Virus record (IMG/VR): IMGVR_UViG_3300044638_001637
Span: 1-35,823 of that record
Direction: 5' to 3' (one strand)
From: a virus
DNA: 35,823 bases
Part shown: positions 1,638 through 35,068 of the stretch, in pieces
Layout: every line of letters begins with the position of its first letter
How positions within the stretch are numbered: position 1 is the stretch's first letter
Notes under the pieces: model-generated
The model's database searches: none
Seen by the model: the letters and a program-made list of their open reading frames with translations, nothing else
Told to the model about the DNA's origin: nothing
Made by a program: the position numbers and the translations under genes

Positions 1638-1677
1638 ATTCTGCTCGGGGTTTTGGTTTTCCCCTTGTTTTGGTTTG

Positions 1678-1706
1678 CCCCGTGAAAGCTATTCACGGGG
1701 TTTTTT
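1678..1706 (+). terminator. Strong rho-independent terminator
   Basis: A perfect 9-bp stem, CCCCGTGAA (1678-1686) and TTCACGGGG (1692-1700), closes a five-base loop and is followed by six T residues. It ends the capsid transcription unit. A smaller GGGG/CCCC pairing just upstream (1647-1664) could form an additional hairpin. The next gene has its own promoter-like element immediately downstream. Confidence 0.9.
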
Positions 1707-1714: not shown

Positions 1715-1741
1715 TAAACGAAACGTGATTACGTAATTTTA
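1715..1741 (+). promoter_or_regulatory. Candidate late promoter, copy 1 (TAAAC-N13-GTAATTTTA)
   Basis: TAAAC lies at 1715-1719 and GTAATTTTA at 1733-1741, followed by exactly five bases and the ATG at 1747. The same two blocks with the same spacing to the start codon occur before 27710, 34458 and 35074. TAATTTTA resembles the Bacteroidota -7 box TAnnTTTG, and TAAAC falls 32 bases before the ATG, where a -33 box would be if transcription began at or beside the start codon. It sits just after the terminator at 1678-1706, as a new promoter would. Confidence 0.6.
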
Positions 1742-5297: not shown

Positions 5298-6352
5298 CGG
5301 TAAACATAGATAGTCAGATAGTCGTTAAAACGGCGGCGCAATGGGCAGCGGATAGTACCGTGTATTCATCGCAGCGTATATTGGTTACGTCTGATGTAAC
5401 TTACACGAATTCTGATCAGCGTAAATTTAAGATCGCTGACGGTGTGCAGACGTGGTCTAACTTGGATTATATGCCTATCGCGCAAACATTAGCGGAGGTG
5501 TTGGCAAATGATAACGACACGAACAACTTAAATATCGTAAGTCCTAACGGTAAGTCGATCGCTACTATTCAAAATTCGTTTATTCGTTTATTGCACGACG
5601 ATGGCAATGACTCGGAGTTGTATCTTCATTCAGCTGATGCTACATTAAAAACAGCTACGGGTGGGTTTTACGTTAATGAAACAGCGTTAACCGATACGAA
5701 ATTTGTGCAGATCAAAAGTGCGTCAACTACAATACAGCACGACACCACGGTAAGCATTAATACTCCTAATGTAAACCTACCACAAGAGACGGCATCGCGT
5801 GTTGCGATTTTTGATGCGAGTAAAAACGTTAAGGCGGCGGATACGACCACCTACCCTAACCTTACCGAATTAAGCTACGTTAAGGGTGTTACATCTCCAA
5901 TACAGCCGCAGATAAACACAAAGGTTACCCTTGACGATGTTTATTTTACCTTGCCATTTTATTCAGGCGTATTAAGTCCTGCGGATGCTACAACCTACTA
6001 TTTTTCACCTGCTTCTATTTCACCAAGCACCACAGCGACAAACCAAGACTTTTCTTTGGGATATAACTTTACCGTAATCGGTGCGGTGATATTATGCAGC
6101 GCGAATACGACTTCAGGAACTACTGAAAATAGTACTTTGTATATTCGCAACACAACAACGTCGACAAGTTCAACTATGGGGACGTTTCAAACAAACGGAT
6201 CGACAACCGTAGTTATATCAACTACTTTGACAGGGTTAAGTATTAATGTCGACGCGGCTGACTCATTTTGCTTGGAATGGTTAACACCTACATGGGTAAC
6301 AAATCCTGTATCTTTTACGACTCGTGTAATTTTAATGTGCAAAAGACGATAA
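5288..6352 (+). CDS. Tail fibre or receptor-binding protein
   Basis: A 354-residue protein. The first 60 residues (SSQRILVTSDVTYT, then FKIADGVQTWSNLDYMP) match the style of the short N-terminal attachment domain of fibres such as the Bordetella phage Mtd-type proteins. The middle contains LSYVKGVTSPIQPQIN, a common linker in trimeric fibres. The C-terminal 140 residues are Thr/Ser-rich and beta-like and probably carry the receptor-binding head. It is followed by three small beta-rich genes and an SGNH hydrolase, which makes 5288-7916 the adsorption region. Confidence 0.7.
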   Translation: MAVTVNIDSQIVVKTAAQWAADSTVYSSQRILVTSDVTYTNSDQRKFKIADGVQTWSNLDYMPIAQTLAEVLANDNDTNNLNIVSPNGKSIATIQNSFIRLLHDDGNDSELYLHSADATLKTATGGFYVNETALTDTKFVQIKSASTTIQHDTTVSINTPNVNLPQETASRVAIFDASKNVKAADTTTYPNLTELSYVKGVTSPIQPQINTKVTLDDVYFTLPFYSGVLSPADATTYYFSPASISPSTTATNQDFSLGYNFTVIGAVILCSANTTSGTTENSTLYIRNTTTSTSSTMGTFQTNGSTTVVISTTLTGLSINVDAADSFCLEWLTPTWVTNPVSFTTRVILMCKRR

Positions 6353-13910: not shown

Positions 13911-13993
13911 CCTCTCACATTATAAGCAACTAACAATTTAATGCCCATTGGCAGAAAACAGAGGTGAGAGGCTGTGAGTATGTTGATGGGCAT
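13911..13993 (+). promoter_or_regulatory. Structured leader: two interleaved perfect inverted repeats (pseudoknot candidate)
   Basis: CCTCTCAC (13911-13918) pairs with GTGAGAGG (13964-13971), and ATGCCCAT (13941-13948) pairs with ATGGGCAT (13986-13993). The order A-B-A'-B' is that of a pseudoknot, with two 8-bp stems. The second stem ends 12 bases before the ATG at 14006, so folding could control translation of the replication initiator. Regulation is an inference. Confidence 0.5.
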
Positions 13994-14005
13994 ATTTATT
14001 TTACA

Positions 14006-14728
14006 ATGGCTAAGAAATCTAAAGATCCTGCATTCCTGTTTTACACTTCAGACTTTTTGACTGGCACTTTATTTATGAGCAATGAGCAGGTAGGTGTATA
14101 CATTCGTTTATTATGTGCTCAACATCAGCACGGAGGATTGATTGATAAGAACAGTTTTAACGGAATGGTTAAGGAAGATAGCGTATTAAGATCAAAGTTT
14201 GTGGAAACGGAGGATGGATTTTACAATGAGCGATTAATGGAGGAAATGGTATTGCGTCAAAAGAAAACGACTAACTTAAGTGCTAATGCTCAAAAGAGAT
14301 GGTCAAAAGTACAAAATGATGCAAAAGCAATGCAATTGCATATTAATAACGATGCAAATGCATTACAATTGAATATGCCGATTGAAGATGAAAATGAAGA
14401 TGTAAATTTAGATGTAAATAATAAGATAGGGGGTGTGGGGGAAAGACCTAACTACACGCCGTCATTAGACAACCAACACATCGAAGTTGATCAGTTAAAA
14501 CCGATATTGATGCAGCGAACATCATGGAGAGACATTCAGCAGCGGAACGGCAAGTACACGGATGAACAATTCGAGGTAACGGTGAACGCGTTTATTGAAT
14601 GGCTAAAAGAGAAAGGCGAGTTGACCAAGACACCAAAGGACGCGCGATTCCATTACAATAACTTTGCCAAAAGAAAACGATCAGAAAAGACAGTTGTAAA
14701 AGCACCGGCATACAAAAAATTAGACTAA
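14006..14728 (+). CDS. Replication initiator or helicase loader, DUF1376/DnaD-like
   Basis: A 240-residue protein from the ATG at 14006 (MAKKSKDPAFLFYTSDFLTG); a longer GTG reading frame would begin inside the leader hairpin. Residues 7-95 are DUF1376-like, a winged-helix type found in phage replication initiators (FMSNEQVGVYIRLLCAQHQH). A low-complexity Asn/Asp linker follows (about 100-150), then a C-terminal domain with TPKDARFHYNNFAKRKR, typical of Bacteroidota phage replication proteins. It probably binds the origin and loads the DnaB helicase encoded at 16675. The linker DNA contains GATGNAAAW repeats that might form the origin. Confidence 0.7.
   Translation: MAKKSKDPAFLFYTSDFLTGTLFMSNEQVGVYIRLLCAQHQHGGLIDKNSFNGMVKEDSVLRSKFVETEDGFYNERLMEEMVLRQKKTTNLSANAQKRWSKVQNDAKAMQLHINNDANALQLNMPIEDENEDVNLDVNNKIGGVGERPNYTPSLDNQHIEVDQLKPILMQRTSWRDIQQRNGKYTDEQFEVTVNAFIEWLKEKGELTKTPKDARFHYNNFAKRKRSEKTVVKAPAYKKLD
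14315..14419 (+). repeat. Iteron-like repeats, candidate replication origin
   Basis: GATGNAAAW occurs at 14318, 14351, 14387, 14399 and 14411. The first two lie within a 24-base direct repeat (14315-14338 and 14348-14371, 20 of 24 identical). The region is AT-rich and inside the initiator gene, as in phages whose origin lies in the initiator gene. The repeats are all in codon phase and encode an Asn/Asp linker, so a protein-level explanation is also possible. Confidence 0.35.
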
Positions 14729-14740
14729 CTAACAAACATT

Positions 14741-15571
14741 ATGAAAACAATAACATCAATATCAGGCGGTAAAACATCCGCATATTTGGCTAAACATTAT
14801 CCAACTGATTATAATATATTTTCATTGGTAAGAATTGATGATCATAGATGCAGACCGAAAGACAACAGCATTGTAAAATATGCCAGTGATAAAATTGGCA
14901 TGGATTTTATAGCAACTGCCGAAAGTGATAAAACATTGTACGTCATGCGAGATTTAGAGCAATTGCTTGGAAAAGAAATAATTTGGGTAACTGGCGATAG
15001 TTTTGATCAGTTAATAAGAAAACGCAAAGCACTGCCGAATATCATGCAAAGGTTTTGTACAACTGATATGAAAATGTTTCCTATCGCTGAATGGTGGTTT
15101 AGGGAGATATGCGAAAAAATACAAATGCAAGTCGGATTTAGATATGATGAAAAAGAACGTGCAGATAGATTTAAGACAGATATAAAAATAAAAGTAGGTA
15201 AGCACACAAATGGAAATAATAAGTGGAAAGAATTTAATTGGCGAGTAGGAAAGTTTCCATTAATTGAAGATAAAATAAATCATTATCATGTAGTACAGTG
15301 GGCTAAATCGACATTATTAGAATTTCCTCAAGATAGTAATTGTGTTGGATGTTTTTGGAAGCCATTACAACAACTGAGGAAAAATTGGGAAAATGAACCG
15401 CTAAAAATGCAATGGTTTTCAGACGTTGAACAAGCTAACTATTCTAAAAGAATTAAAGTTCAAAAATGGAAAAAAGAAGCAAATTATGAACAAATTAAAA
15501 ACATCGGTTTGCAACAAGATTTTCATTTTGGAACTGGAAGCGGATGCCAAGCAGGATTTTGCACAGATTAA
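14741..15571 (+). CDS. PP-loop ATPase, PAPS reductase-like, with conserved cysteines
   Basis: A 276-residue protein of the N-type ATP pyrophosphatase fold. The PP-loop is SISGGKTSAYLAK (residues 6-18). Five cysteines are arranged as in iron-sulphur or zinc sites: Cys105 (RFCTTDMK), Cys201 and Cys204 (NCVGCFW), Cys269 and Cys274 (GCQAGFCTD). The family includes PAPS reductases, DndC and tRNA-sulphurating enzymes, which adenylate a substrate and transfer sulphur or electrons. Function here is unknown; base or nucleic acid modification is possible because a C5 methyltransferase lies nearby. The gene is markedly AT-rich compared with DnaB, suggesting later acquisition. Confidence 0.7.
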   Translation: MKTITSISGGKTSAYLAKHYPTDYNIFSLVRIDDHRCRPKDNSIVKYASDKIGMDFIATAESDKTLYVMRDLEQLLGKEIIWVTGDSFDQLIRKRKALPNIMQRFCTTDMKMFPIAEWWFREICEKIQMQVGFRYDEKERADRFKTDIKIKVGKHTNGNNKWKEFNWRVGKFPLIEDKINHYHVVQWAKSTLLEFPQDSNCVGCFWKPLQQLRKNWENEPLKMQWFSDVEQANYSKRIKVQKWKKEANYEQIKNIGLQQDFHFGTGSGCQAGFCTD

Positions 15572-15639
15572 TGTATAATTGCAAAAAGTTAAAAATTATT
15601 GCGAATCGTAGTATATTATCATACAAAACCAAAACCAAC

Positions 15640-15816
15640 ATGAAATATTTAGTAACATACATTGAAAACGGAATACAGAAAGCGTTTTATACAAATTGGT
15701 TTGACATTGAAAATAACTTCAATTCAGAAGTAGGAATGGTTGTTTTTGATTTGGTAAATCATAAGTATATGGTAAATAGTTTAGGATGGACAGATATTCA
15801 AGTAGACCATCTCTAA
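15640..15816 (+). CDS. Small unknown protein in the AT-rich insert
   Basis: A 58-residue protein from the ATG at 15640 (MKYLVTYIENGIQKAFYTNW), preceded by the AAAACCAAAACCAAC leader. It has two short beta strands and aromatic residues. No family is recognised. The base composition is very AT-rich, like the PP-loop gene before it and the methyltransferase after it. Confidence 0.45.
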   Translation: MKYLVTYIENGIQKAFYTNWFDIENNFNSEVGMVVFDLVNHKYMVNSLGWTDIQVDHL

Positions 15817-15821
15817 GCCTT

Positions 15822-15853
15822 GCCACTAACGTTTTCGGGCTCGGCGAAGTGGC
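15822..15853. repeat. Hairpin GCCACT...AGTGGC upstream of the methyltransferase cassette
   Basis: GCCACT (15822-15827) and AGTGGC (15848-15853) are a perfect inverted repeat around a GC-rich loop containing CGGGCTCGG, unlike the AT-rich surroundings. The left arm runs into TAAC. A similar arm, GTGCT followed by AAC, bounds the other side of the methyltransferase gene (16599-16633). It may be a recombination-site relic or a terminator-like element. Confidence 0.45.
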
Positions 15854-15900
15854 TGAACCCAAAGTTAAATAGAATTAATAAACTAAAAAATTAAGAACAA

Positions 15901-16593
15901 ATGTTGATAGAAGAACCAAACAGCCATTTTGCCAAACCAGTGTTAGCCCCAGTACGTGTACTTAATCTCTACGCTTGTTTAGGAGGTAATAGATTATTAT
16001 GGGAAAATTGCGAAGTAACTGCCGTTGAATGGGATGAAGAACTTGCAAAACTATATCAAGAGAGATTTCCAAATGATAAGGTAATAGTTGGCGATGCTCA
16101 CAAATACCTATTAGAACACTTTAATGAGTTTGATTTCATTTGGAGTTCTCCACCTTGCCCAAGCCATAGTAGAGCAAGATTCGCAAGGCGAAATACAACT
16201 ACGCCAATTTACCCTGACTTGAAGCTGTATGAAGAAATATTGTTTTTAGAAAACTATTATGAGGGCAAATATTGTGTAGAAAATGTAATACCATATTACG
16301 AACCATTGATACCTGCAAAAAAAATAGGAAGGCATTTATATTGGACAAATTTTAGACTGCCGAATGATTTAGGAGAACGAAAGCACTCAATTATGGAAAG
16401 CAAAGATGAAACTAAAAAATGGTGCGAATTTCACAATTACGATTTTACTAAATATAAAGGCACTCAATCTGTTCAAAAGATTGCCCGAAATTTAGTTGAT
16501 TACGAAGCTGGAAAAACAATATTTAATATAGCAATGGGAATAATTAACAAACCTAAAACAAGCCAAGGATGTCTATTTGGAAACGAATGGTAG
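15901..16593 (+). CDS. DNA (cytosine-5) methyltransferase-like protein
   Basis: A 230-residue protein with C5-methyltransferase motifs in order: motif I LYACLGGN (23-30), acidic residue of motif II in VEWDEE (43-47), motif IV SSPPCPSHSRAR with Cys86 as nucleophile, and motif VI VENVIPYYEPL (127-129 ENV). It would transfer a methyl group from SAM to C5 of cytosine in DNA. It is short (typical bacterial enzymes are about 300-400), so the target-recognition part is small. It lies in an AT-rich insert with a hairpin on each side. No restriction enzyme gene is adjacent, so it is an orphan that may protect phage DNA. Confidence 0.75.
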   Translation: MLIEEPNSHFAKPVLAPVRVLNLYACLGGNRLLWENCEVTAVEWDEELAKLYQERFPNDKVIVGDAHKYLLEHFNEFDFIWSSPPCPSHSRARFARRNTTTPIYPDLKLYEEILFLENYYEGKYCVENVIPYYEPLIPAKKIGRHLYWTNFRLPNDLGERKHSIMESKDETKKWCEFHNYDFTKYKGTQSVQKIARNLVDYEAGKTIFNIAMGIINKPKTSQGCLFGNEW

Positions 16594-16674: not shown

Positions 16675-18078
16675 ATGGAGCAGAATAAAACCATATCCGC
16701 TAATGAGTTAGAGCGTATTGTCATTGGCACGTTGCTGATCGACGTTAACGCAACCAAACAAGCCTTAGACATAATCGACGAGCGTTGTTTTTATGATAGT
16801 AAGAACGCGCGTGTATTTGCAGCTATCGAAAGGCTATTCAGTAGACATGAGGCGGTCGACCTTGTAACCGTTACTCAAGAACTAAAGTCGAGCAATGAGT
16901 TGGAAGTTATTGGCGGAATGGCTGTATTAAGCGATTACGCGATGCGTGTGGCATCTTCGTTGCACCTTGACGGTCATTGCAGGTTGTTGCTTGAATATAA
17001 GATTAAGCGCGAGATTCTGCATAAATCCGAAAAACTGTTTACAAAGTCGCAGAACGAAAGCAGCGATGTGTTCGACTTACGCGATCAGGTAAAAGAACTG
17101 TATGACTTTATGCTGCAGGAAACGACCAAAGGCAAACAGATAGTTCATGTCGCGGAGGTTGTCAATGCTGAGCGTGAGAATTACAACCTGAAGGCTGAAA
17201 ATTACGCGAAAGGGTTACCGACTGGAGTTCGTACCGGGTTAGCAGGATTAGATCGAATCTTGGGTGGCTTTCAGAATAGCGACCTTGTTATTTTAGCCGC
17301 ACGACCTGCGATGGGTAAGACGGCTTTAGTGTTAACCTTTGCAAAAAATTGCAACGTGCCATCCGTGTTTTTTTCTCTCGAAATGTCATCGCTACAATTA
17401 ACGCAACGTCTAATAATGCAACACGCGCAGGTGGACGCGGAGAGATATAAGAACGGAATGTTATCGCAGGTAGAATTGTTGGAGGTGGAAAAAGCACGTG
17501 GTAAGGTTGAGCGGATGCAGCTATTTATTGAGGACAAAGCAGGTATTGACTGGCAGGAATTACGATCAAAAGCGTTAAAGGAAGTCGAGCGAGGTGCAAA
17601 GATTATTTTTGTTGATTACCTGCAACTTGTAAACGTTCCAAGTGCAAAGAACCGCAACCGTGAGGCGGTAATATCTGAGATCAGCCGTGAGTTAAAGAAA
17701 GTAGCTAAGGATTGCAATGTGCCGGTAATAGCCTTATCGCAGTTGAGTCGTGCAGTTGAAGGTAGGGGTGATAAGATTCCGCAGTTATCCGACCTTCGAG
17801 AAAGTGGAGCAATCGAGCAGGATGCGGATGTAGTTATGTTTATTCACCGTCCAGAATATTACGGAATAATGCAGGATGAAGGCGGTAATTCAACGCAAGG
17901 CAAAGCGGAGGTAATAATTGCTAAGCATCGTAACGGAGCGGTTGGTACCATTACAACGAACTTCATATCTTCATGCACGTTATTTACTGATGAAGAAGTA
18001 AGTCAACCACAATCACAACCAATGTACAATCCAAACACGGATGCGATCAAAAAATATCACGACGAAAATCCATTTTAA
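16675..18078 (+). CDS. dnaB: Replicative DNA helicase, DnaB family
   Basis: A full-length 467-residue DnaB-type hexameric helicase. The N-terminal helical domain occupies residues 1-150 (ELERIVIGTLLIDVNATKQ). The RecA-like C-terminal domain has Walker A ARPAMGKTAL (about 208-217), a DnaB-type IFSLEMS-like segment (VFFSLEMSS), Walker B IIFVDYLQL (about 309-317), and the arginine-finger region IALSQLSRAVEGR plus DLRESGAIEQDADVV. It unwinds DNA at the phage fork and likely partners with the initiator at 14006. The leader is AAACCAAAACCAAACCAA. Composition returns to the genome norm after the AT-rich insert. Confidence 0.95.
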   Translation: MEQNKTISANELERIVIGTLLIDVNATKQALDIIDERCFYDSKNARVFAAIERLFSRHEAVDLVTVTQELKSSNELEVIGGMAVLSDYAMRVASSLHLDGHCRLLLEYKIKREILHKSEKLFTKSQNESSDVFDLRDQVKELYDFMLQETTKGKQIVHVAEVVNAERENYNLKAENYAKGLPTGVRTGLAGLDRILGGFQNSDLVILAARPAMGKTALVLTFAKNCNVPSVFFSLEMSSLQLTQRLIMQHAQVDAERYKNGMLSQVELLEVEKARGKVERMQLFIEDKAGIDWQELRSKALKEVERGAKIIFVDYLQLVNVPSAKNRNREAVISEISRELKKVAKDCNVPVIALSQLSRAVEGRGDKIPQLSDLRESGAIEQDADVVMFIHRPEYYGIMQDEGGNSTQGKAEVIIAKHRNGAVGTITTNFISSCTLFTDEEVSQPQSQPMYNPNTDAIKKYHDENPF

Positions 18079-18080
18079 CT

Positions 18081-18108
18081 AAAAACCAAAAACCAAAAAC
18101 CAAAAACC
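18081..18108 (+). repeat. Four tandem copies of AAAAACC in a gene leader
   Basis: Four perfect 7-base units occupy 18081-18108, directly before the ATG at 18110. This is the longest example of the AAACCA leader seen before many genes here. A change in copy number by slippage could alter the spacing or strength of translation initiation. Confidence 0.7.
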
Positions 18109-18109
18109 A

Positions 18110-18502
18110 ATGAAAAAAGAAATAACAAAAGAAGAATTTATTGAAGCGTTCGATATAGTTAATCGATACAAACAACAACTGTACGATAAGATAAAAGAAT
18201 GCAAAGAGCAAACAATTGTGATTAATAAAACCATGAAGTATGTTGATACTGGAATGTTAACTGCAACACCAAATTCATTTATAGAAGAATTAGACATTAA
18301 CACAAGAGTAAAACGATGCCTTTATATGTTATGGTATAAATCTGGCAAAAATGAAAATGATAGAAAATTTCATGAAGTCAAATTAAGTGAATTGAACGGA
18401 TTGAGTAAATCTGCATTAAAAGATTGTCATGGTTTTGGGGTTAAAACCATTAAAGAAATGGAACTAATTTTTCAACAAGCACAATTAACACTAAAAGACT
18501 AA
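18110..18502 (+). CDS. RNA polymerase alpha-CTD-like helix-hairpin-helix protein
   Basis: A 130-residue protein. Residues 1-55 are helical and coiled-coil-like. Residues 58-130 follow the layout of the C-terminal domain of the RNA polymerase alpha subunit: IEELDINTRVKRCLY, then KLSELNGLSKSALKDCHGFG and VKTIKEMELIF, ending LTLKD, much like the ends of bacterial alpha subunits. The alpha-CTD binds UP elements and activators. A phage copy could redirect host polymerase, or it may be a DNA-binding module alone. The gene is AT-rich compared with DnaB. It sits between DnaB and a DnaA-like gene. Confidence 0.6.
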   Translation: MKKEITKEEFIEAFDIVNRYKQQLYDKIKECKEQTIVINKTMKYVDTGMLTATPNSFIEELDINTRVKRCLYMLWYKSGKNENDRKFHEVKLSELNGLSKSALKDCHGFGVKTIKEMELIFQQAQLTLKD

Positions 18503-18506
18503 ACCA

Positions 18507-19007
18507 ATGAAAATTCCAGCAGAAAAATTTAAACACGAACTATTCAGTTCAGTTCAGGAAGTATTCGACCTGAACTACTTACAGCTGTCAAGTGCATCGA
18601 GACTCGGGTATTTAACACTCGTCCGACATCTTTGCATGAACCTTATGCGTGAATATACTACGCTTAGCACACCAATGATAGCAGCTACGTTCAACCGCGA
18701 CCATGCTACGGTCATTCACGCTAATAAACGTCATCTGTTAAAAGACAATCCAAGAGCGGATAAGAATTACCATGATGCCTACATCAACCTAATGAAATCC
18801 TTATCGCCTAAATTGATGTTGTTATTGACTGGCAACGTGCCGGTGTTAAATTTAACGATCATGGGTTACGACCTGCAAAAGTTAATCAACCTTCGCAATT
18901 TCTTCAGCGACATTGGTGATAAGAATAACGTTAGCATGATGAACATTTACATCGAGCAATTTAGAAACATAGAGCGCGAAGCCTTAGCACTTGAATATGT
19001 CAACTAA
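18507..19007 (+). CDS. DnaA domain IV-like DNA-binding protein
   Basis: A 166-residue protein. Residues 30-80 match the DnaA C-terminal helix-turn-helix: ARLGYLTLVRHLCMNL-like helix, then TPMIAATFNRDHATVIHANK, equivalent to the DnaA signature (GRDHTTVLHA). That domain recognises DnaA boxes at oriC. There is no AAA+ ATPase part. The remaining C-terminal half is helical and unrecognised. The protein could bind phage origin sequences, compete for host DnaA boxes, or regulate genes. The start follows the stop of the alpha-CTD-like gene by four bases. Confidence 0.75.
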   Translation: MKIPAEKFKHELFSSVQEVFDLNYLQLSSASRLGYLTLVRHLCMNLMREYTTLSTPMIAATFNRDHATVIHANKRHLLKDNPRADKNYHDAYINLMKSLSPKLMLLLTGNVPVLNLTIMGYDLQKLINLRNFFSDIGDKNNVSMMNIYIEQFRNIEREALALEYVN

Positions 19008-19018
19008 AAGTAAATAAG

Positions 19019-19057
19019 TGTCAAGTAAACACGTTTATTAATAACGTAAGTTTGACA
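19019..19057 (+). promoter_or_regulatory. Promoter -7 box within nested inverted repeats, before the sigma-like gene
   Basis: TAAGTTTG (19047-19054) is a perfect TAnnTTTG box that ends five bases before the GTG start at 19060, again predicting a leaderless message. It overlaps the outer inverted repeat TGTCAA (19019-19024) and TTGACA (19052-19057). A nested palindrome-like block (ACGTTTATTAATAACGT, 19031-19047) lies inside. The arrangement is typical of an operator. Confidence 0.55.
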
Positions 19058-19059
19058 GC

Positions 19060-19611
19060 GTGAATCGAGATCAGATAATCGCGGAACTATACACGCACAA
19101 AGAACTTAAACGGGCTTTGCGTAAGTATGCGATTAGCGCGGAAACGCGAGAAGATCTTTGGCACTATGTTATCGAGGCAGTTTGCAAGTTACCTGAGGAA
19201 AGTTTATTGCAGTTACATTCATCAGGACGATTAAAGCACTACGCGTTTATTACTTTGCGAAATTTAGCAGGTAACACGCGTAGTGTTTACTTCAAAGAGT
19301 GCGGCTTGAATGAGTTTAAGTTGACGATGGACGAAGTGGATGTGATAGCGGATGAAGAGGATTCTGATCAGTTGCCCGTTATCGAAATGGATCAATTCAA
19401 AGCATTCTTAGATTATGCAGCGCGTGAACGTACCGATATTACAATGGAGGCTATTGTAACACGTGAATACATCAATTACACGCCAATAAAGCGTAGAAGT
19501 TATCGGGACTTTCAGATAGTAACCGGAATACATTATAGCAGCGTTTGCGTGTACGTTAAACGAATGGTCAAAGAATTTAATCAAAACCAAAACCAATGCG
19601 TATCTCATTAG
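19060..19611 (+). CDS. Sigma-like transcription factor
   Basis: A 183-residue protein with GTG start. The N-terminal half (about 5-75: LYTHKELKRALRKYA, then LWHYVIEAVCKLPEESLLQL and HYAFITLRNLAGN) resembles sigma region 2-like proteins of Bacteroidota and their phages. An acidic linker follows (VIADEEDSDQ). The end (RSYRDFQIVTGIHYSSVCVY) looks like a region 4 helix-turn-helix. It may direct RNA polymerase to phage promoters. It has a perfect -7 box and an inverted repeat immediately upstream. Homology is distant and should be tested. Confidence 0.6.
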   Translation: MNRDQIIAELYTHKELKRALRKYAISAETREDLWHYVIEAVCKLPEESLLQLHSSGRLKHYAFITLRNLAGNTRSVYFKECGLNEFKLTMDEVDVIADEEDSDQLPVIEMDQFKAFLDYAARERTDITMEAIVTREYINYTPIKRRSYRDFQIVTGIHYSSVCVYVKRMVKEFNQNQNQCVSH

Positions 19612-20753
19612 TAATGACAGGCACACCGGATCATCCCATCAGAAACGGGATGGACTTGTATCGTCTGTATATGCCTTATAGTAAGGTCGAAGGCGTTACG
19701 ATTAATCTCAAGCACGATCTTATCGGTGCAAAGTTAGACGCGGACGTGTACGTAATTAATCGCGCTTATCCTGTTGAGTTATTTCGATATATAAAAGAGC
19801 AAGGTAAAAAGATTATATTAGACCTTGACGATCACTGGGATATCCCTACGTGGCATCGTTTACATCCTAAGCGATTAGAGGCAAACATTCAACACGCTAA
19901 GTCCTTAAACTTGGATCACGAGGCGCAAATGTTGCAGCGTCAATTGGATGAGGTGGTAAGTTGGAAACATCAACTAAATGAGGTTGTTAAAATTGTGGAC
20001 GCGGTTACCGTGTCGACACCCATGTTATCTGCTTACTATGTTAAGCAATTTGGCATACTTCCTACAATTATACCAAACACTATTGCACCTGAAATAACAC
20101 GCTTTACTACAAAGAAGCAACCATCACGATTTACTCGCTTTGGATTTATTGCAGGTACTTTTCGTGAGCGCGATGCAGCGTTAATGCACAAAGGCATTCA
20201 GCGTTCGTTCAAGGATCAGGAGTTGAAAGGCAAATGGCAGTTGATCCAAACCTTTAACGCGCACGGTAGCTATGCTGAGCAGGAGCGCAACTTCACCAAC
20301 AATTACACGAACGTATCGGAGTGGTATCGGGACTATCTTAAGAAGTTTATCGAGCAAGGCAACCATGTTGCGAATCAGCAATGGTATAAGCGCGTATGGG
20401 CTATGGATGCTGTTAACTACGGTAAAATGTATGAGGAAGTTGATGTGGCTTTAATTCCTATGCAGCACGGTGTATTTAATTCCTGCAAATCAGAGTTGAA
20501 GTTGATCGAGGCAGGATTTACCGGGTGCGCTGCTATTGTATCGGATGTGATGCCGTATGCACCATATTTACAACACAACGTCAACTGCATATCTACTAAT
20601 GAGGATCAGGGGTGGTATCGCGGTATTCGTGAACTGACTTTGAACAAAGAATTACGTCATAAGTTAGCTTGGAATCTTCAAGAGACAATGTTTGAACACT
20701 TTAACCACAACCGCGCGGATGCAGCGGTACACACACTACTTAACACATTATGA
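19596..20753 (+). CDS. GT-B glycosyltransferase (GT4-like)
   Basis: A 385-residue protein with two Rossmann-like halves typical of GT-B enzymes. N-terminal half: VYVINRAYPVELFRYIKEQG and KIILDLDDHWDIP. C-terminal half: TRFGFIAGTFRERDAALMHK and VDVALIPMQHGVFNSCKSEL, with the usual E-rich donor-binding end (KLIEAGFTGCAAIVSDV). It would transfer a sugar from a nucleotide sugar to an unknown acceptor. It overlaps the sigma-like gene by 16 bases and opens the seven-gene cluster. It has the AAAACCAAAACCA leader. Confidence 0.75.
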   Translation: MRISLVMTGTPDHPIRNGMDLYRLYMPYSKVEGVTINLKHDLIGAKLDADVYVINRAYPVELFRYIKEQGKKIILDLDDHWDIPTWHRLHPKRLEANIQHAKSLNLDHEAQMLQRQLDEVVSWKHQLNEVVKIVDAVTVSTPMLSAYYVKQFGILPTIIPNTIAPEITRFTTKKQPSRFTRFGFIAGTFRERDAALMHKGIQRSFKDQELKGKWQLIQTFNAHGSYAEQERNFTNNYTNVSEWYRDYLKKFIEQGNHVANQQWYKRVWAMDAVNYGKMYEEVDVALIPMQHGVFNSCKSELKLIEAGFTGCAAIVSDVMPYAPYLQHNVNCISTNEDQGWYRGIRELTLNKELRHKLAWNLQETMFEHFNHNRADAAVHTLLNTL

Positions 20754-21424
20754 AGATCGGTATAGGGGTAACAGGATGCACACGACCTGAACACGTACAA
20801 ACGTGCGTGGATGAGATTAAAAAGCACACGCAATTGGATCACAAGTTAGTCGTAATGATTGACGAGAAAAAGAAAGGCGTTGCATGGAATAAGAATCAAT
20901 GTCTTGAAGCGTTGCAGGATTGCGATTATGTATTTTTATTTGACGATGATTGCTTCCCAAGAGCCAAAGGGTGGGAGACTTTCTTTATTGAGCATTCAAA
21001 GCGGACGGGAAACCAACACTTCATATATCAACACGAGACATTGCAGGTTACGCAAATCAAATGCATAGACGACATTGCACAATACAACAACTGCAACGGC
21101 TGCATGATGTTCTTTACCCGTGCTTGTTTAGATGGCATTGGTAGCTTTGACGAGTCATTCGGGGTATATGGATTTGAACACGCTGACATGAGCGTACGTG
21201 CTAACTTAGCAGGATTCACACAAGCAGACTTTGTTTGTCCTATTGGAGCAAGTCAGTACGTCTATTCTTTGGATTTGGATAACTACATCGAATATCCTAT
21301 CGAGCATCGTCCATCTTTATTCCCTGATGAAATAGCACATGCTGTAAAGGTTAGCCGTGATAGATGGGTTAATAAACTAAACAACGAACTAAAACCAAAA
21401 CAAGATGAAAAAGATTCTGATTAA
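20750..21424 (+). CDS. GT-A glycosyltransferase, family 2-like
   Basis: A 224-residue GT-A enzyme: N-terminal Rossmann half (IGIGVTGCTRPEHVQTCV), GVAWNKNQCLEAL, then the metal-binding DDD at residues 65-67 (VFLFDDDCFP). The second half contains GSFDESFGVYGFEHADMSVR, the acceptor-side region with an ED/H motif. It overlaps its upstream neighbour (ATGA) and the next gene by 20 bases. Donor and acceptor are unknown. Confidence 0.75.
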   Translation: MKIGIGVTGCTRPEHVQTCVDEIKKHTQLDHKLVVMIDEKKKGVAWNKNQCLEALQDCDYVFLFDDDCFPRAKGWETFFIEHSKRTGNQHFIYQHETLQVTQIKCIDDIAQYNNCNGCMMFFTRACLDGIGSFDESFGVYGFEHADMSVRANLAGFTQADFVCPIGASQYVYSLDLDNYIEYPIEHRPSLFPDEIAHAVKVSRDRWVNKLNNELKPKQDEKDSD

Positions 21425-22073
21425 GTACGCATCCCGTCAACGCCCGGATAAATTTGCGCGTGGTATGGATAGCATCATGAAGGCGACAAACAAAAGTCGC
21501 ATCACCGTGTTGGTATCATTAGATAAAGACGATCCTGAATTACTGCAATATCACCGCGTAATGGAACACAATCCCGATCTGCGTGTTATTTGCCTGATAG
21601 GCACTTCATACGGTAAAATAGACGCTATTAACCGTGATATGCACACATTACAGGATTGGGATATATTGGTTAATTTCTCCGATGACATGGTGTTTACGGT
21701 AGATGGGTGGGATGATATAATTGAGCAGCAATTTACTGACGAACCTTTGTTTTTGCATTTGCCTGACGGACATCAGAACGAGAATATCAGCACGATGTCA
21801 ATTATGAATAAAGCATACTACAATCAGGACGGATACATTTACCATCCATCTTACAAATCATTATGGTGCGATGTTGAAGCAACGGAGGTGGCAAAGTTAC
21901 GCGTTCAGCACAAGTACGTTAACGTTCGCATTTTCGATCATTTGCACGTAGCATGGGGTAAGGCTGAATGGGATGCGTTGTATGTTAAGAATGAGAACCG
22001 TGAACTTTGGAATCATGACGAGCAAGTTTACCACACACGTAAATCAAAGAATTATGAATTACAGCCAAAATAA
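21405..22073 (+). CDS. GT-A glycosyltransferase-like protein
   Basis: A 222-residue protein. Residues 3-100 resemble a GT-A fold (ILIKYASRQRPDKFARGM at the start, GKIDAINRDMHTL, then VNFSDDMVF with a DD pair at 93-94 as the metal site). The later part contains FDHLHVAWGKAEWD, which may bind the acceptor. It overlaps both neighbours by 20 bases, so the genes are made as a unit. Substrate is unknown. Confidence 0.65.
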   Translation: MKKILIKYASRQRPDKFARGMDSIMKATNKSRITVLVSLDKDDPELLQYHRVMEHNPDLRVICLIGTSYGKIDAINRDMHTLQDWDILVNFSDDMVFTVDGWDDIIEQQFTDEPLFLHLPDGHQNENISTMSIMNKAYYNQDGYIYHPSYKSLWCDVEATEVAKLRVQHKYVNVRIFDHLHVAWGKAEWDALYVKNENRELWNHDEQVYHTRKSKNYELQPK

Positions 22074-22656
22074 CGAGCAAGAAATAATCCTGAATTACTT
22101 TGCCGGTAAGACGGGCAGGTTATTGGACATTGGAGCAAATGACGGTAAGACTTTCAGCAATAGTTACGCACTTATTGAACAGGGGTGGGGTGGTATCTTG
22201 GTTGAGCCATTGCCATCTTGCGTAAAAAAGTTAAAGAAGTTGCACGGTGAAAATAACAAAGTAACAATCATTGATGCTGCTATTGTTTCCGTACCTACTG
22301 ATGAAAAGATAAAATTTTATGTTAATGATCCGCACATACCTAATGATGACGGGTTGCTTAGCACGGCTGTTGTATCGGAGAAAAATCGCTGGAAGGGATT
22401 AAACTTTAACGAAATCGAAGTTGACGCATACACCTACACCGATTTATTCGACGGTGAAAAATTTGACTTTATCAGTATAGATGCTGAAGGTATGGACTAT
22501 GCGATACTTAGACAGATCGACTTAACTAAGACGGAGTGCAAGTTATTATGCGTAGAGTTTAATGGTGTCAACCCACAAGTATACCTTGACTATTGCGCCA
22601 AACACGGAATGCAAGAAATTCACCGGAATAATGAAAATCTAATCTTTGCAAAATGA
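22054..22656 (+). CDS. FkbM family SAM-dependent methyltransferase
   Basis: A 200-residue protein from the ATG at 22054; a longer frame would overlap the previous gene by 101 bases. The SAM-binding motif is LLDIGANDGKTFSN (residues 23-36), followed by GGILVEPLPS, and the FkbM signature FDFISIDAEGMDYAIL. FkbM enzymes methylate hydroxyl groups, often on sugars of glycans or secondary metabolites. Position inside a glycosyltransferase cluster suggests O-methylation of the sugar chain, a common way to cap or diversify glycans. Confidence 0.8.
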   Translation: MNYSQNNEQEIILNYFAGKTGRLLDIGANDGKTFSNSYALIEQGWGGILVEPLPSCVKKLKKLHGENNKVTIIDAAIVSVPTDEKIKFYVNDPHIPNDDGLLSTAVVSEKNRWKGLNFNEIEVDAYTYTDLFDGEKFDFISIDAEGMDYAILRQIDLTKTECKLLCVEFNGVNPQVYLDYCAKHGMQEIHRNNENLIFAK

Positions 22657-23315
22657 AAACTATTGAACAATACATAGCTGAAATTATTGACGAGAAGGAC
22701 AAATTATTATTTTTTGAATTTGGAATGTACGATGCGTATCACACGTATATTATGCTCGACATGATTCCGAGTAGCAAGAAATTTGAGTATCATGGCTTTG
22801 AAATGATCGACTGGCTATACAATCAAATAGTTGATAAGAAAAAAACATACGCAAACGGTCAGATGCATTTGGTTAACAAAGCAATATCCGATAAAACAGG
22901 TGTTAAGAAGTTTTATAAGTCGGGAGGCAAACGTGATGAAAATGGACAACTAAAAGAACACTATTATGGCAGTAGTTCAATAGTTAAGCCCGTAGAAGTT
23001 ACAAACGTATTTCCGGCAATGAACTTTACTGAGTCGCAAGTGGAGTGCATAAAATTAGACGATTACGTGAATGAGTCGGGGTTAACTGGCAAAGTGATTG
23101 ATTTTATTTGGGCAGACATTCAAGGAGCGGAACATCTGTTAATTAAAGGCGGAGTTAATACCTTCAAAAATGTAAGATACTTCTACACGGAATACTGCGG
23201 TAAAGAATGGTATAAAGGCAATAAAGATGCGAAAGGAATACAAAGAATGCTACCATATTTTGAAGTCGTGCAAGACTTTGGCGGTGATGTGTTACTGAAA
23301 AATAAAAACCTATGA
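22653..23315 (+). CDS. Second FkbM family-like methyltransferase
   Basis: A 220-residue protein starting in an ATGA overlap. It has a degenerate SAM motif near the N-terminus (LLFFEFGMYDAYHTYIML), where the usual glycine-rich loop is altered, and a good FkbM ending (FIWADIQGAEHLLIKGG). It probably methylates a sugar, but with loss of the normal GxG loop it could be a divergent or regulatory form. It may form a pair with the enzyme before it. Confidence 0.65.
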   Translation: MKTIEQYIAEIIDEKDKLLFFEFGMYDAYHTYIMLDMIPSSKKFEYHGFEMIDWLYNQIVDKKKTYANGQMHLVNKAISDKTGVKKFYKSGGKRDENGQLKEHYYGSSSIVKPVEVTNVFPAMNFTESQVECIKLDDYVNESGLTGKVIDFIWADIQGAEHLLIKGGVNTFKNVRYFYTEYCGKEWYKGNKDAKGIQRMLPYFEVVQDFGGDVLLKNKNL

Positions 23316-23893
23316 TGTTATCAATTTTAATTCCTACCGTACCACAAAGATCGCGGTTGCTTATTCAGCTATTAGATGAGTTGAATAAACAGATACAGGA
23401 CTGCAGCGCGTTCGATGTTGTGGAAATAATAACCGACGATGCGCCTGTTGGAAGTAAAAGTACCGGGCAAAAAAGAAATGACCTGCTCGACAAGGCTAAT
23501 AACAAATACGTGTGGTTTATTGACGATGACGATATGGTAATGAAAAACGCAATTCGCAACATATTGACGGCGTTGGATCAAAACCCTGACGCGTTGGGAA
23601 TAAATGGCATCATTACTACGGATGGAATTAACCCGAAAAAGTGGTACATCAGCAAAGATTTAGAGTATATGGCAGACACGATAAATGGCAATGAAGTATA
23701 TCTAAGACCAACTAATCACATAACGCCTGTAAAAAAAGAGATTGCACAGGCTATAAGATTTGAACACAAAAGCAACTTTGAGGACTACGAATACTGCATG
23801 AAGTTGAAAAATGCAGGTTTAATAAAGACTGAGGTTAAAATTGACGAGCCTGTTTACCATTATCAGTACTTGTCAACAAATAAACTATACTAA
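23312..23893 (+). CDS. GT-A glycosyltransferase, family 2-like
   Basis: A 193-residue enzyme with LSILIPTVPQRSRLLIQLL at the start, TDDAPVGSKSTGQKRNDLL for nucleotide binding, and FIDDDDMVM with DDDD at residues 71-74 for the metal. It is short, with a C-terminal half of only about 100 residues containing FEDYEYCMKL, the usual ED motif. It starts at ATG 23312 or 23315. It overlaps both neighbours by a few bases. Confidence 0.75.
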   Translation: MMLSILIPTVPQRSRLLIQLLDELNKQIQDCSAFDVVEIITDDAPVGSKSTGQKRNDLLDKANNKYVWFIDDDDMVMKNAIRNILTALDQNPDALGINGIITTDGINPKKWYISKDLEYMADTINGNEVYLRPTNHITPVKKEIAQAIRFEHKSNFEDYEYCMKLKNAGLIKTEVKIDEPVYHYQYLSTNKLY

Positions 23894-24594
23894 TGAAAGT
23901 AGCTGTTTGTTCATACGCGAGTGCGTGTCATAAGTTCGGACGCGATAAAAGCCAAAGATACTTTAAGTATGCTGAACGGTTAAGGGATGGGTTGACGGGT
24001 GTAGACTTTTATCTATTTACTGAAAACAATCTTGACCATCCTAACCATAGCGAAGTGCCGTATGCCTTCAAACCATACGCTATTGACAAACTGCGAAAGG
24101 AATACGATATTGTCATCTGGGCAGATAGTTGCGTGTACGCAATAAAACCGATAGACAAGTTTATCGAATACATCAAGATAAACGGGTTTGCATTCTTTGA
24201 TAACATCGGATTCAGGATTGGCGATTACACTTCGGACGAATGCTTAAACAACTTAGGCATGAGTAGAGATGAATCATTTAATCACCCGATGATTATGGCT
24301 TGTTTAATGGGATTCAATTTCACAAATGACAAAGCAGTAAAATTATTTGATGCATATTACCAAGCCACAAAAATTAAAGGTTGTTACGAAGGCGATTGGT
24401 CTAATCAATTTAACCAAGTAAGTCAAGACAATCGAGTGAAGGGACACAGGCACGATCAGTCGGTCATGAGTGTCTTATTAGCTAAAGAAAAAATAAAGCC
24501 TTTGCATCCTCATTCTACATTTTTTGCGTATTACGGCAATCCCGGTCATTTACCACACGCTCAGACAGTTTGTTTACTTTCACAAGGCTTTTAA
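23893..24594 (+). CDS. Glycosyltransferase-like protein (DUF616-like)
   Basis: A 233-residue protein starting in a TAATG overlap. VAVCSYASACHKFGRDKSQR starts the sequence, VDFYLFTENN follows, and VIWADSCVYAIKPIDKFI contains a DxC variant of the DxD metal site. GHRHDQSVMSVLL late in the protein resembles the DUF616/galactosyltransferase-like catalytic end (HDQ). It closes the sugar cluster. The function is inferred from these patterns and its neighbours. Confidence 0.6.
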   Translation: MKVAVCSYASACHKFGRDKSQRYFKYAERLRDGLTGVDFYLFTENNLDHPNHSEVPYAFKPYAIDKLRKEYDIVIWADSCVYAIKPIDKFIEYIKINGFAFFDNIGFRIGDYTSDECLNNLGMSRDESFNHPMIMACLMGFNFTNDKAVKLFDAYYQATKIKGCYEGDWSNQFNQVSQDNRVKGHRHDQSVMSVLLAKEKIKPLHPHSTFFAYYGNPGHLPHAQTVCLLSQGF

Positions 24595-24840: not shown

Positions 24841-25125
24841 ATGGAACAGTTATTAATTTCAGCATTGATCGGAATAGCATCGTATTGGTTTGTAGGTATG
24901 ACCTTAATACCGTCTCAAATCCTGCTCAAATACACGGGTAAAATACACATGAAGCCGTTTACCTGCGAGTTGTGCATGGCGTGGTGGATAGCCTTAGCCG
25001 TTAACATTACGCTATTCTGTAATTTTAGTGATATGAAGTCCATCGTATTAGCGGTACTTATGAGCGCGTTTGCTTCGTTTGTTGCCGTTTTAGGAATGGA
25101 GTTCCACAAAAAGCTACAGCGATGA
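24841..25125 (+). CDS. Small integral membrane protein with CxxC
   Basis: A 94-residue protein with hydrophobic spans at about residues 5-24, 48-62 and 67-87. The loop between them contains KPFTCELCMAWW, a pattern seen in small phage membrane proteins of DUF1360-like type, where the two cysteines may bind metal. Function is unknown; modification of the host membrane or exclusion of other phages is possible. An internal ATG at 25033 follows a GTAATTTTA-N5 sequence by chance or as a weak internal start. Confidence 0.55.
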   Translation: MEQLLISALIGIASYWFVGMTLIPSQILLKYTGKIHMKPFTCELCMAWWIALAVNITLFCNFSDMKSIVLAVLMSAFASFVAVLGMEFHKKLQR

Positions 25126-27521: not shown

Positions 27522-27679
27522 ACATCTACGAGATCACGAACGGGGATAAGACCAAAGAGGATGCGTATTGGAATATGACGCTTATTGAGTGGTATAACCG
27601 CTTGGCACTAATGAAAGACGTGCAGGATGACCACAAAGAGCGGATGGAGGCAATAAAGCAGAAGATGCAGGTACGCTAA
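27401..27679 (+). CDS. -1 frame extension (T-like part) of the tail chaperone
   Basis: This frame has no close ATG start before its protein-like part (LNIYEITNGDKTKEDAYWNM, then LALMKDVQDDHKERMEAIKQ), the first in-frame ATG being 27575. A -1 shift at the T run gives a fusion of about 252 residues; the 34-residue product from 27575 would be an alternative. The stretch between the T run and about 27510 looks less protein-like in this frame than in the upstream frame, so the true shift site could lie closer to 27521. The stop codon is part of the TAAAC box of a candidate promoter. Confidence 0.45.
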   Translation: MRGIKETRTAYRNLFGGTNRQAGSGGEQGVSIHEHWGWQLNIYEITNGDKTKEDAYWNMTLIEWYNRLALMKDVQDDHKERMEAIKQKMQVR

Positions 27680-27704
27680 ACGTTAACCCGTTCATGTAAT
27701 TTTA
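27677..27704 (+). promoter_or_regulatory. Candidate late promoter, copy 2 (TAAAC-N14-GTAATTTTA)
   Basis: TAAAC at 27677-27681, 14 bases, GTAATTTTA at 27696-27704, five bases, then ATG at 27710. TAAAC begins 33 bases before the ATG. The architecture is identical to copies before 34458 and 35074. Confidence 0.6.
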
Positions 27705-32855: not shown

Positions 32856-34427
32856 ATGGCAACAAGAGAGGAAGTAGTTAAACTCACCATTGAATCAGCG
32901 GAGGCTGCAAAATCTGTTAAAGAGGTACGCGAGTCGTTAAAGGCTATTCGTGATCAGATGTTGGCAGTTGGTGATGACTCAAAAGAGTTTCATCAATTAG
33001 CAGCCGCAGCGGCTGAATTAAAAGACCGTGTTAACGATGCTAATGAAGCAATGGCTGCAATGCATCCTGACGGGTTTCAAGCCGTTACGAACTTTGCCGC
33101 AAAAGCATCAGGAGCGGTACAAGGTGTTACGGGTGCTATGGCTTTATTTGGTGGTGAATCCGAAGAAGTTCAAAAGACCATGATGAAGCTACAGGCTGCA
33201 ATGGCTTTGACACAAGGTCTTGAGTCATTAAAGGACATGAGCAAGGCTTGGAAGGCGTTAAATGCTGTAATCGCTGCGAATCCGGTACTTGCTATTATTG
33301 CAGCGGTGTTGGCATTGGCAGCGGCGGCTAAAGCCGTGTATGATTGGTTCGTTGAGCAAAATAGCGAGGCTGCTAAATTAGAGGAACAGGCAAAGCAAAT
33401 AGAGGCGGTAGAAAGCAGGAAAATACAGCAGTTAGAAACACAAGCGCGAATCTTAAAAGCGCAAGGTGCATCAGAGGATGAGATATATAAAAATTTATTA
33501 AAGCAACTTGATGCTAAATTGAAAATAGCGGAAGCGTCTTTAATTGCAGCACGTCAAAGAGCAAGAGAGGCGGATTTTGAAGAAGAGGAAATGGCTGCAT
33601 TAGCTGAAGCGTCAAAGGCATACGAACAACTATTGGCAGACAAAGGTATTGCACAAATTGAATATCAAAATTGGCAGCAAGAGCAGCGCGATAAAGAAAT
33701 TCAAGCAGAAGCGGATAAAAACAAAAAGATTGCTGACCAATACAAGGAAAGAGCAAAAGTAGAACAAGAGGCAATACAACAGACGCACGATGTGTTTATG
33801 CCTATCATGCAGCAACAGGTTGCTGTTCAACAAGAGGCTACGGATAAATTAAAGATTGGGGTGTACGATGCGAGTGCGGACATGGAAGGAGCGCACAAAA
33901 GTTTTGTTGATAGACTGCAATACCTACAAACAGGATTTAATTTACGCGTTGATTTATTAAACAAAAAGTTAGGGCAGGGTACGGTAGAACAGATGGGCAA
34001 TATGTTCGGCGCGTTATCCGAAGCGTCAAAGAAAAACGCTAAGATGCAGAAGGCGTTTGCGATTGTTCAGGCTACCATTAACACATATCAAGCAGCTACA
34101 AAGGCATTAGCATCTTTATCCCCTCCAGCGTCTTATATTGCGGTTGCGGCTGCATTAATTTCGGGATTTGCTCAAGTTAGAAACATAGCGATGCAAAACG
34201 TGGATAACCCATCATCATCATCCGCAGGAGGCGGTGGTGGTGGCATGGGATTAGCTACCATTAACAGCGCACCTGACGTTAACACGGCACAACAACCTTC
34301 AACTTTAATTAACGAACAAGGTCAGGCAATGAACCAACAACAACAAGCACCGGTATATGTTGCAGTAACCGAAATACGCGAAGTAAGTAACAACGTTAAC
34401 GTAGTGGAGAACCTTGCACGATTCTAA
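32856..34427 (+). CDS. Tape measure protein
   Basis: A 523-residue helical protein. Residues 1-130 are coiled coil (AKSVKEVRESLKAIRDQML), then a hydrophobic span (about 138-162, ANPVLAIIAAVLALAAAAKA), long charged coiled coil (about 170-310), a second hydrophobic helical region (KAFAIVQATINTYQAATKAL, ASYIAVAAALISGFAQVRNI), a Gly/Ser linker and a tail. This is typical of siphophage tape measures, which set tail length. At about 0.15 nm per residue the predicted tail is roughly 80 nm, shorter than lambda. It sits after the fibre genes, an unusual order. Confidence 0.8.
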   Translation: MATREEVVKLTIESAEAAKSVKEVRESLKAIRDQMLAVGDDSKEFHQLAAAAAELKDRVNDANEAMAAMHPDGFQAVTNFAAKASGAVQGVTGAMALFGGESEEVQKTMMKLQAAMALTQGLESLKDMSKAWKALNAVIAANPVLAIIAAVLALAAAAKAVYDWFVEQNSEAAKLEEQAKQIEAVESRKIQQLETQARILKAQGASEDEIYKNLLKQLDAKLKIAEASLIAARQRAREADFEEEEMAALAEASKAYEQLLADKGIAQIEYQNWQQEQRDKEIQAEADKNKKIADQYKERAKVEQEAIQQTHDVFMPIMQQQVAVQQEATDKLKIGVYDASADMEGAHKSFVDRLQYLQTGFNLRVDLLNKKLGQGTVEQMGNMFGALSEASKKNAKMQKAFAIVQATINTYQAATKALASLSPPASYIAVAAALISGFAQVRNIAMQNVDNPSSSSAGGGGGGMGLATINSAPDVNTAQQPSTLINEQGQAMNQQQQAPVYVAVTEIREVSNNVNVVENLARF

Positions 34428-34452
34428 ACGAAGATATCAACACGTAATTTTA
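34425..34452 (+). promoter_or_regulatory. Candidate late promoter, copy 3 (TAAAC-N14-GTAATTTTA)
   Basis: TAAAC at 34425-34429 begins with the tape measure stop codon, followed by 14 bases, GTAATTTTA at 34444-34452, five bases and the ATG at 34458. Confidence 0.6.
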
Positions 34453-34457: not shown

Positions 34458-35054
34458 ATGCCTAAAAAGAAAAAGTTGCCGATTTACGAAATGACTGTAG
34501 ATCAGAATTCAGAGTCAGGTGTTGAAATGACCGCACTTGTCGACAATCCTGCAGTCGAGATGGACTTTTTGGTATTTGACGAACAGAAACCGATGCAGTT
34601 CAAATACGATGACAAAGAATGGATAGTAACAGGCGTGGCGATGAGAGCGGATTATCCTATTTATCGTAACGATTCACGCGGTGAGTACTATGTTACATTC
34701 AGCAAGGACACAATAAAGACTATCATCAAAAAGTGGGCAAAAGAAAATCGATTCAACGCGGTTAACAAGATGCACAACGCTGAAGATGTTGCTAACGGTG
34801 TTTATCTTATAGAATCAATCTTCGTGGATAAGAATCGTGGTGTTAACGCACCGGAAGGATTAGACGTAGAGGATGGCTCGTGGATTCATTCTTATTATGT
34901 TGAAAATCCTGAAATACGCGCTAAGATCGAAGCAGGTGAGTTCAAAGGTTTCAGCGTAGAGGGTATGTTCGGGATGGAATTTGGATCGCATCCTATTGAT
35001 GACGTAATGAAAGACCTTAACGATACTATTGACCAATTTCTAAACAATTTATAA
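34458..35054 (+). CDS. Head maturation protease, XkdF-like
   Basis: A 198-residue protein with XkdF-type signatures: VEMTALVDNPAVEMDFLVFD at the start, a His in MHNAED (about residue 113), and the end EDGSWIHSYYVENPEIRAKI followed by GEFKGFSVEG with a likely catalytic Ser. The enzyme cleaves scaffold and capsid N-termini during prohead maturation in the HK97-like lineage. It is immediately upstream of the scaffold and capsid genes. Catalytic roles of His and Ser are inferred from family knowledge. Confidence 0.8.
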   Translation: MPKKKKLPIYEMTVDQNSESGVEMTALVDNPAVEMDFLVFDEQKPMQFKYDDKEWIVTGVAMRADYPIYRNDSRGEYYVTFSKDTIKTIIKKWAKENRFNAVNKMHNAEDVANGVYLIESIFVDKNRGVNAPEGLDVEDGSWIHSYYVENPEIRAKIEAGEFKGFSVEGMFGMEFGSHPIDDVMKDLNDTIDQFLNNL

Positions 35055-35068
35055 GTAACGTAATTTTA
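35041..35068 (+). promoter_or_regulatory. Candidate late promoter, copy 4 (TAAAC-N14-GTAATTTTA)
   Basis: TAAAC at 35041-35045 is inside the protease end, followed by 14 bases, GTAATTTTA at 35060-35068, five bases and the ATG at 35074. It would drive scaffold and capsid genes. Confidence 0.6.

Follow-up and report, generated by a model that had tools for sequence, protein, structure and literature searches.

Genes downstream of DnaB

The locus consists of a gene for the DnaB replicative helicase, open reading frames (ORFs) of 130, 166 and 183 aa and a glycosyltransferase gene, in this order. It lies in the uncultured-virus record IMGVR_UViG_3300044638_001637, positions 1-35,823 of which constitute the window, that is, the whole stretch of 35,823 nt that was analysed. 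The 35.8-kb window is apparently a nearly complete genome, because it is colinear with, although permuted relative to, the 35.5-kb record G007 and because its ends overlap. A Bacteroidota host is suggested by the absence of Shine-Dalgarno-like sites, by A-rich leaders and by the relatives of DUF7833 and of the DnaA domain IV protein (DnaA-IV). A first-pass annotation had described three genes in succession after DnaB, and these ORFs are real and were correctly placed:

16675-18078, plus strand: DnaB replicative helicase (TIGR00665, E = 2e-120), upstream neighbour of the three ORFs
18110-18502, plus strand: accessory ORF (130 aa) with a weakly alpha-CTD-like helix-hairpin-helix C-terminus (Pfam RNA_pol_A_CTD, E = 0.0024)
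18507-19007, plus strand: stand-alone DnaA domain IV (166 aa), the DNA-binding domain without the AAA+ ATPase (PF08299, E = 5e-14)
19060-19611, plus strand: ECF-like sigma factor by family profile (183 aa, GTG start) with a sigma2-like N-terminal half and a sigma4-like HTH C-terminal half; proposed late specificity factor

The region from the exonuclease gene to DnaB (13964-16593) varies among close relatives: several of them share only 47-60% identity in its primosomal-type protein, and most lack its PAPS-reductase-like gene. On the 3' side of the sigma-like gene, a run of glycosyltransferase-like and methyltransferase-like genes (19596-24594) is retained in distant relatives.

The 130-aa ORF had been annotated as an alpha-CTD-like protein, but this identity is not established. 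Its Pfam match is not significant (18.0 bits against a cutoff of 23.8), its score with an alpha-CTD profile made from Bacteroidota rpoA (8.5 bits) falls under the top score of 2000 shuffles (9.6), and a PDB search with its AlphaFold model gave no significant fold match. The model has a pLDDT of 68 and places the helices plausibly, but with low confidence there (about 54-75), and the motif GFGVKTIKE resembles the alpha-CTD helix-hairpin-helix. The alpha-CTD domain was absent from the 34 other phage records searched. Matches in 395 Bacteroidota genomes (E = 0.0008-0.009) were discarded as counterparts, the three with open frames that were checked belonging to unrelated families. The ORF is AT-rich (28% GC) and was found in one of nine close relatives; in three of the nine a gap of 25-26 nt, and in five one or two other genes, lie between DnaB and the DnaA-IV gene. 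Across the window and L001-L009, this slot (18079-18506 in the window) is either empty or holds a 62-aa gene, a 195-aa gene, a 62-aa gene plus one of about 230 aa, or the alpha-CTD-like ORF. Because repeats of the leader AAAACCAAAAACCAAAACCA-ATG flank it, bordering the slot between DnaB and the DnaA-IV gene, the slot resembles a cassette site, and these short repeats may serve as recombination points. The alpha-CTD-like ORF is read here as an exchangeable accessory cassette which stands outside the conserved system.

The 166-aa protein is a clearer case. Its PF08299 match exceeds the cutoff, it matches the DnaA structure 3pvp in the PDB (E = 7e-7), and it retains the signature (R)...RDHATVIHA with the DnaA-box contact residues; the C-terminal model alone matches, AAA+ ATPase domain III being absent from the protein. 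Thus the annotation of a DnaA domain IV-like protein without its ATPase is borne out. The gene lies immediately 5' of the sigma-like gene in the window group, L234 and L246, is separated from it by one small ORF in L235 and is more distant in L254; near the sigma-like genes of L239, L250 and others it was not recognised. The DnaB/DnaA-IV neighbourhood recurs, since many more distant phage contigs also have matching DnaA-IV-like ORFs downstream of DnaB, and PF08299 has matches in 14 of 34 records. A divergent DnaA-domain-IV-like ORF with the motif GxxHHSSxxHY is found directly 3' of DnaB in L039, L042, L057, L059-L063 and others. A phage origin built on DnaA boxes was considered and dropped because the phage shows no enrichment of these boxes (TTWTNCACA; 3 found versus 6.5 expected). 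In part of the phage family, the DnaA-IV protein most likely serves as an auxiliary activator that binds DNA or as a factor linked to replication.

The sigma-like protein and its family

As a single sequence, the 183-aa protein matches TIGR02937 with E = 0.013 (15.1 bits, cutoff 42.9), has no Pfam match, gives an AlphaFold model with a pLDDT of 35, and found no match in the phage collection, the genome contigs or the 395 Bacteroidota genomes. That the curated models miss the single sequence is put down to limited sensitivity; recognition by such models is not what defines the fold. Relatives were recruited by a terminase-based scan (terminase identity 62-83%), and an iterative profile search among them gave 32 ORFs homologous to 19060-19611, 22 of which, with 12-47% identity to the window protein, constitute the family alignment (A2). 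The profile of this family matches ECF sigma factors in the PDB (1h3l, E = 4.5e-5; SigW, 5wuq, E = 5.5e-5 over profile positions 7-167), and the sigma70-ECF model matches 13 of the 22 members (best E = 1.4e-10). Six of the 22 also match phrog_1740, "RNA polymerase sigma factor" (best E = 9e-7), although the window's own protein has no significant PHROG match. When 2964 phage ORFs were ranked with a home-made ECF profile from host proteins, 16 family members took the top 16 places, and the window protein ranked 74.

The near group (A3), six members including the window protein, has no PDB match by itself; therefore, the recognition of the window protein as a sigma factor is transitive. The link is the hhalign comparison of this group with the distant members (A4), which extends over the full length with a probability of 99.1 and E = 5e-19. 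The ECF arrangement of sigma2-like and sigma4-like regions in a single chain of about 170-200 aa is found in the family, to which the window protein is joined by this profile match. Furthermore, a glycosyltransferase gene of the same kind adjoins the sigma-like gene in most family members, distant relatives included. By profile and synteny, the product of 19060-19611 would be a very divergent and fast-diverging two-domain ECF-like sigma factor; the earlier designation as sigma-like holds through the 22-member family and its likeness to ECF structures, whereas the single sequence lies near noise. The GTG start of the gene is present in most relatives (position 19060 in the window; L224, L227, L233, L234, L235, L239, L246, L250, L277, L282 and others), even at 15-30% protein identity, and such a conserved weak start may keep the sigma level low.

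A candidate late promoter element that covaries with the sigma-like protein

The window contains seven exact copies of GTAATTTTA, all on the plus strand, against 0.5 expected per strand; with one mismatch allowed, the count alone is not significant (29 versus 23.7). At four sites the copy lies exactly 5 nt from an ATG, with TAAAC 18-19 nt on its 5' side, and these constitute the element TAAAC-N13/14-GTAATTTTA-N5-ATG, every copy of which is 5' of a late gene. The pattern TAAAC-N12..16-GTAATTTTA occurs four times in the window and 0 times in 100 shuffles. The PWM gives 28-31 bits for the four sites, the next best score being 16 on the same strand and at most 17 on either strand. The elements and their surroundings are as follows:

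1677-1701, plus strand: intrinsic terminator, directly 5' of candidate late promoter 1
1715-1741, plus strand: candidate late promoter 1 (TAAAC 1715, GTAATTTTA 1733; ATG 1747), operon with the portal gene
27677-27704, plus strand: candidate late promoter 2 (TAAAC 27677, GTAATTTTA 27696; ATG 27710), tail module
34425-34452, plus strand: candidate late promoter 3 (TAAAC 34425, GTAATTTTA 34444; ATG 34458), protease-like gene of the head maturation protease family
35041-35068, plus strand: candidate late promoter 4 (TAAAC 35041, GTAATTTTA 35060; ATG 35074), neighbour of the protease-like gene
19026-19054, plus strand: weak promoter-like element TAAAC-N15-GTAAGTTTG, 5 nt before the GTG of the sigma-like gene (PWM 10.4, within background)

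The terminator directly before the first copy favours a promoter rather than a translation signal, and in the records G442 and G443 a hairpin and T-run also precede the orthologous site. A scan of viral contigs for the full bipartite pattern gave 31 stretches, mostly from relatives. The copies of GTAATTTTA at 6326, 25019 and 32723 were rejected as promoters, for they lie within genes and have no TAAAC at the right distance; the one at 25019 is kept in G441 and G446 without a start codon, as coding sequence, and all three are probably coding. The weak element before the sigma-like gene is only suggestive of sigma autoregulation and is kept as a hint. Early genes carry another leader, (A)AAACCAAAA. 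An (A)AACCAAAA-type leader is seen on early and replication genes and on the terminase gene (11209, 12270, 16675, 18110, 19596, 25718), and GTAATTTTA-N5-ATG on late genes; leader type may mark the expression class. The Bacteroidota -7 consensus is TAnnTTTG, from which GTAATTTTA differs by one base, and the boxes CGTCTTTA and CTCACTTA of other lineages, described below, fit it poorly.

The orthologous late genes of the window, G007, G441 and G446, whose sigma-like proteins are 46-100% identical, have the box GTAATTTTA. Those of G442, with a sigma-like protein 31% identical to that of the window, have GTAAGTTTA; G443 (32%) and its sister contig G444 have CGTCTTTA with TCCACA/TCAACA upstream, and G466 (33%) has CTCACTTA with (T/C)AAAC. 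Copies that precede the ATG of an ORF of at least 90 aa by 4-6 nt were compared with all copies in each record. For GTAATTTTA these are 4 of 7 in the window, 4 of 6 in G007, 4 of 5 in G441 and 1 of 2 in G446; for GTAAGTTTA, 4 of 5 in G442; for CGTCTTTA, 3 of 5 in both G443 and G444; and for CTCACTTA, 2 of 3 in G466. Every other combination of lineage and box gives 0, that is, the table is block-diagonal. In the most distant sigma-bearing phages (G448-G452) the late elements were not found. That the box and the sigma-like protein differ together across the lineages is strong circumstantial evidence that the two belong together, but not proof, because phylogeny alone could carry both along; the covariation follows phylogeny, and an identical pattern would be expected for any other phage regulator that is co-inherited.

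Explanations of the locus and known systems

The product of 19060-19611 probably directs the host RNA polymerase, as a phage ECF-like sigma factor, to the late promoters of the virion genes, since the promoter changes between lineages together with the sigma-like protein. This explanation is built from sequence comparisons: the profiles place the protein in the family, the synteny is conserved, and the promoter motif is present and covaries with the sigma lineage. The protein would bind the host core RNA polymerase and guide it to a phage-specific bipartite promoter consisting of the -33 box TAAAC and the -7 box GTAATTTTA; transcription would start at or next to the ATG, so that late mRNAs would be nearly leaderless; and the virion genes (portal operon, tail module, protease-like gene and its neighbour) would be turned on after the early and replication genes, which have other leaders. 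The DnaA-IV protein perhaps assists late transcription, by analogy with the GafY/GafZ pair discussed below. The first-pass annotation had already proposed that the sigma-like factor and a shared late element form a late switch which needs no phage RNA polymerase, and the covariation strengthens this part; on the whole, the sigma-like protein and the promoter stand as the core of that proposal, and the alpha-CTD-like protein is lost from it as a member.

A wider form of the same explanation is tentative: the DnaA-IV and ECF-like sigma proteins might form a single two-protein late activator. Sigma would recognise the -33 and -7 boxes, and the DnaA-like partner, produced next to DnaB, would either couple late transcription to replication or hold the complex in place. 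Such a switch would resemble a split GafA and have a separate origin in Bacteroidota phages, and its sigma and promoter would have diversified together at such a pace that late promoters are no longer common to sister lineages.

The main rival makes the sigma-like protein an activator or antiterminator, a GafZ-like analogue working with the host sigma-A, and the DnaA-IV protein its GafY-like DNA-binding partner, the two activating weak host promoters whose -7 box is TAnnTTTR. It draws on the gene transfer agent activators: in GafA, the N-terminal DNA-binding end is DnaA-like and the C-terminal one sigma-like, and two adjacent genes encode these ends in Hyphomicrobiales (PMC9638019); Caulobacter GafY and GafZ are a split GafA (PMC9632790, PMC11150451), in which GafY contacts RpoD and GafZ, with its sigma-like HTH, is an antiterminator (PMC11150451). 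The gene order in the window is the same as in GafY/GafZ, and the host sigma-A with an activator could also use GTAATTTTA, because this box is similar to TAnnTTTG and only one base away from it. However, the phage family has a sigma2-like half besides the sigma4-like half, the profile comparison (hhalign) of family A2 with a GafZ-like protein (L379:1797-2546) gave a probability of 0.3, several sigma-bearing phages have no recognisable adjacent DnaA-IV gene, and CGTCTTTA and CTCACTTA deviate from the host -7 consensus, so that this explanation is considered unlikely. The record G443, which has the sigma-like gene and late elements and no recognisable DnaA-IV gene, was counted for a phage sigma factor acting on its own promoters.

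It is improbable that GTAATTTTA is a translation-initiation leader and not a promoter, the sigma-like protein having an unrelated role. The fixed distance of 5 nt from the ATG would suit such a leader, as would the different leader (A)AAACCAAAA of early genes and the Kozak-like start contexts of Bacteroidota, which have no Shine-Dalgarno sites (PMC6847099), and the element could act partly in translation; but each of the four sites has TAAAC as a second box 18-19 nt upstream, copy 1 directly follows a terminator, and the box differs between lineages at the same genes, though related hosts are expected to share translation rules. The joint reading in the first-pass annotation, namely that the three genes are one host-takeover set mimicking alpha-CTD, DnaA domain IV and sigma, with the DnaA-IV protein diverting initiation on the host chromosome, is very improbable. 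The three genes do adjoin in this phage, the DnaA-box contact residues are retained and the GFGVKTIKE motif is alpha-CTD-like; nevertheless, the first gene is sporadic (missing in eight of nine close relatives) and statistically weak in its fold assignment, which breaks up the set, and the lack of DnaA-box enrichment in the phage speaks against diverted initiation. Moreover, Caulobacter GafY, first named HdaB because of an effect on replication, was later recognised as an activator of transcription (PMC9632790, PMC11150451), and this history, in which a replication effect of such a protein misled (PMC9632790), counsels against taking the phage DnaA-IV protein for a replication decoy.

Little is known about the timing of late genes in Bacteroidota phages that have no RNA polymerase of their own, and the literature searched contained no described case. 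The sigma-like gene escapes standard family libraries and is paired here with a defined late promoter. The four phage lineages would provide four matched sigma/promoter pairs, in which specificity is testable by swaps; such pairs might serve as orthogonal parts for laboratory use and as a route to the late genes of uncultured phages.

Among known systems, the ECF (group IV) sigma factors such as SigW, SigH and SigR share with the window protein's family the layout of sigma2 plus sigma4 over about 170 aa and a bipartite promoter, the family profile aligning nearly end-to-end on SigW. Differences are that the window protein is too divergent for recognition alone and that no adjacent anti-sigma gene was noted; to our knowledge, the -33 to -7 spacing and the boxes of the window fit no ECF group. 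The phage late sigma factors, T4 gp55 and SPO1 gp28 and gp33-34, redirect the host polymerase to a short late promoter, as is proposed for the present protein. They are not ECF-like in sequence, however, and each T4 late promoter consists of one box and depends on the sliding clamp, whereas the candidate late promoters of the window have two boxes. The T4 late genes have been reviewed (PMC2988020).

The closest arrangement is that of GafA (Rhodobacter) and GafY/GafZ (Caulobacter), in which, as in the window, L234 and L246, a DnaA-domain-IV-like gene is directly followed by a sigma-like gene and tied to virion genes. The earlier remark that no described system has exactly this set needs qualifying accordingly, for the succession of a DnaA-IV-like and a sigma-like gene is known from the GafA/GafYZ regulators of Hyphomicrobiales and Caulobacter (PMC9638019). 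In a Robiginitomaculum genome (L379:1438-2546), a GafY-like DnaA-IV gene overlaps a 249-aa GafZ-like gene. The phage DnaA-IV protein is 34% identical over 76 aa to an alphaproteobacterial GafY-like protein. The phage pair is not filed as GafYZ because its sigma family has no detectable homology to the GafZ-like protein tested; moreover, a Bacteroidota-type phage stands here against an alphaproteobacterial gene transfer agent, and DnaA-IV is missing in several phage relatives. By analogy, the phage DnaA-IV/sigma pair may work like GafYZ, and its neighbourhood hints at a possible link to the GafA regulators of gene transfer agents.
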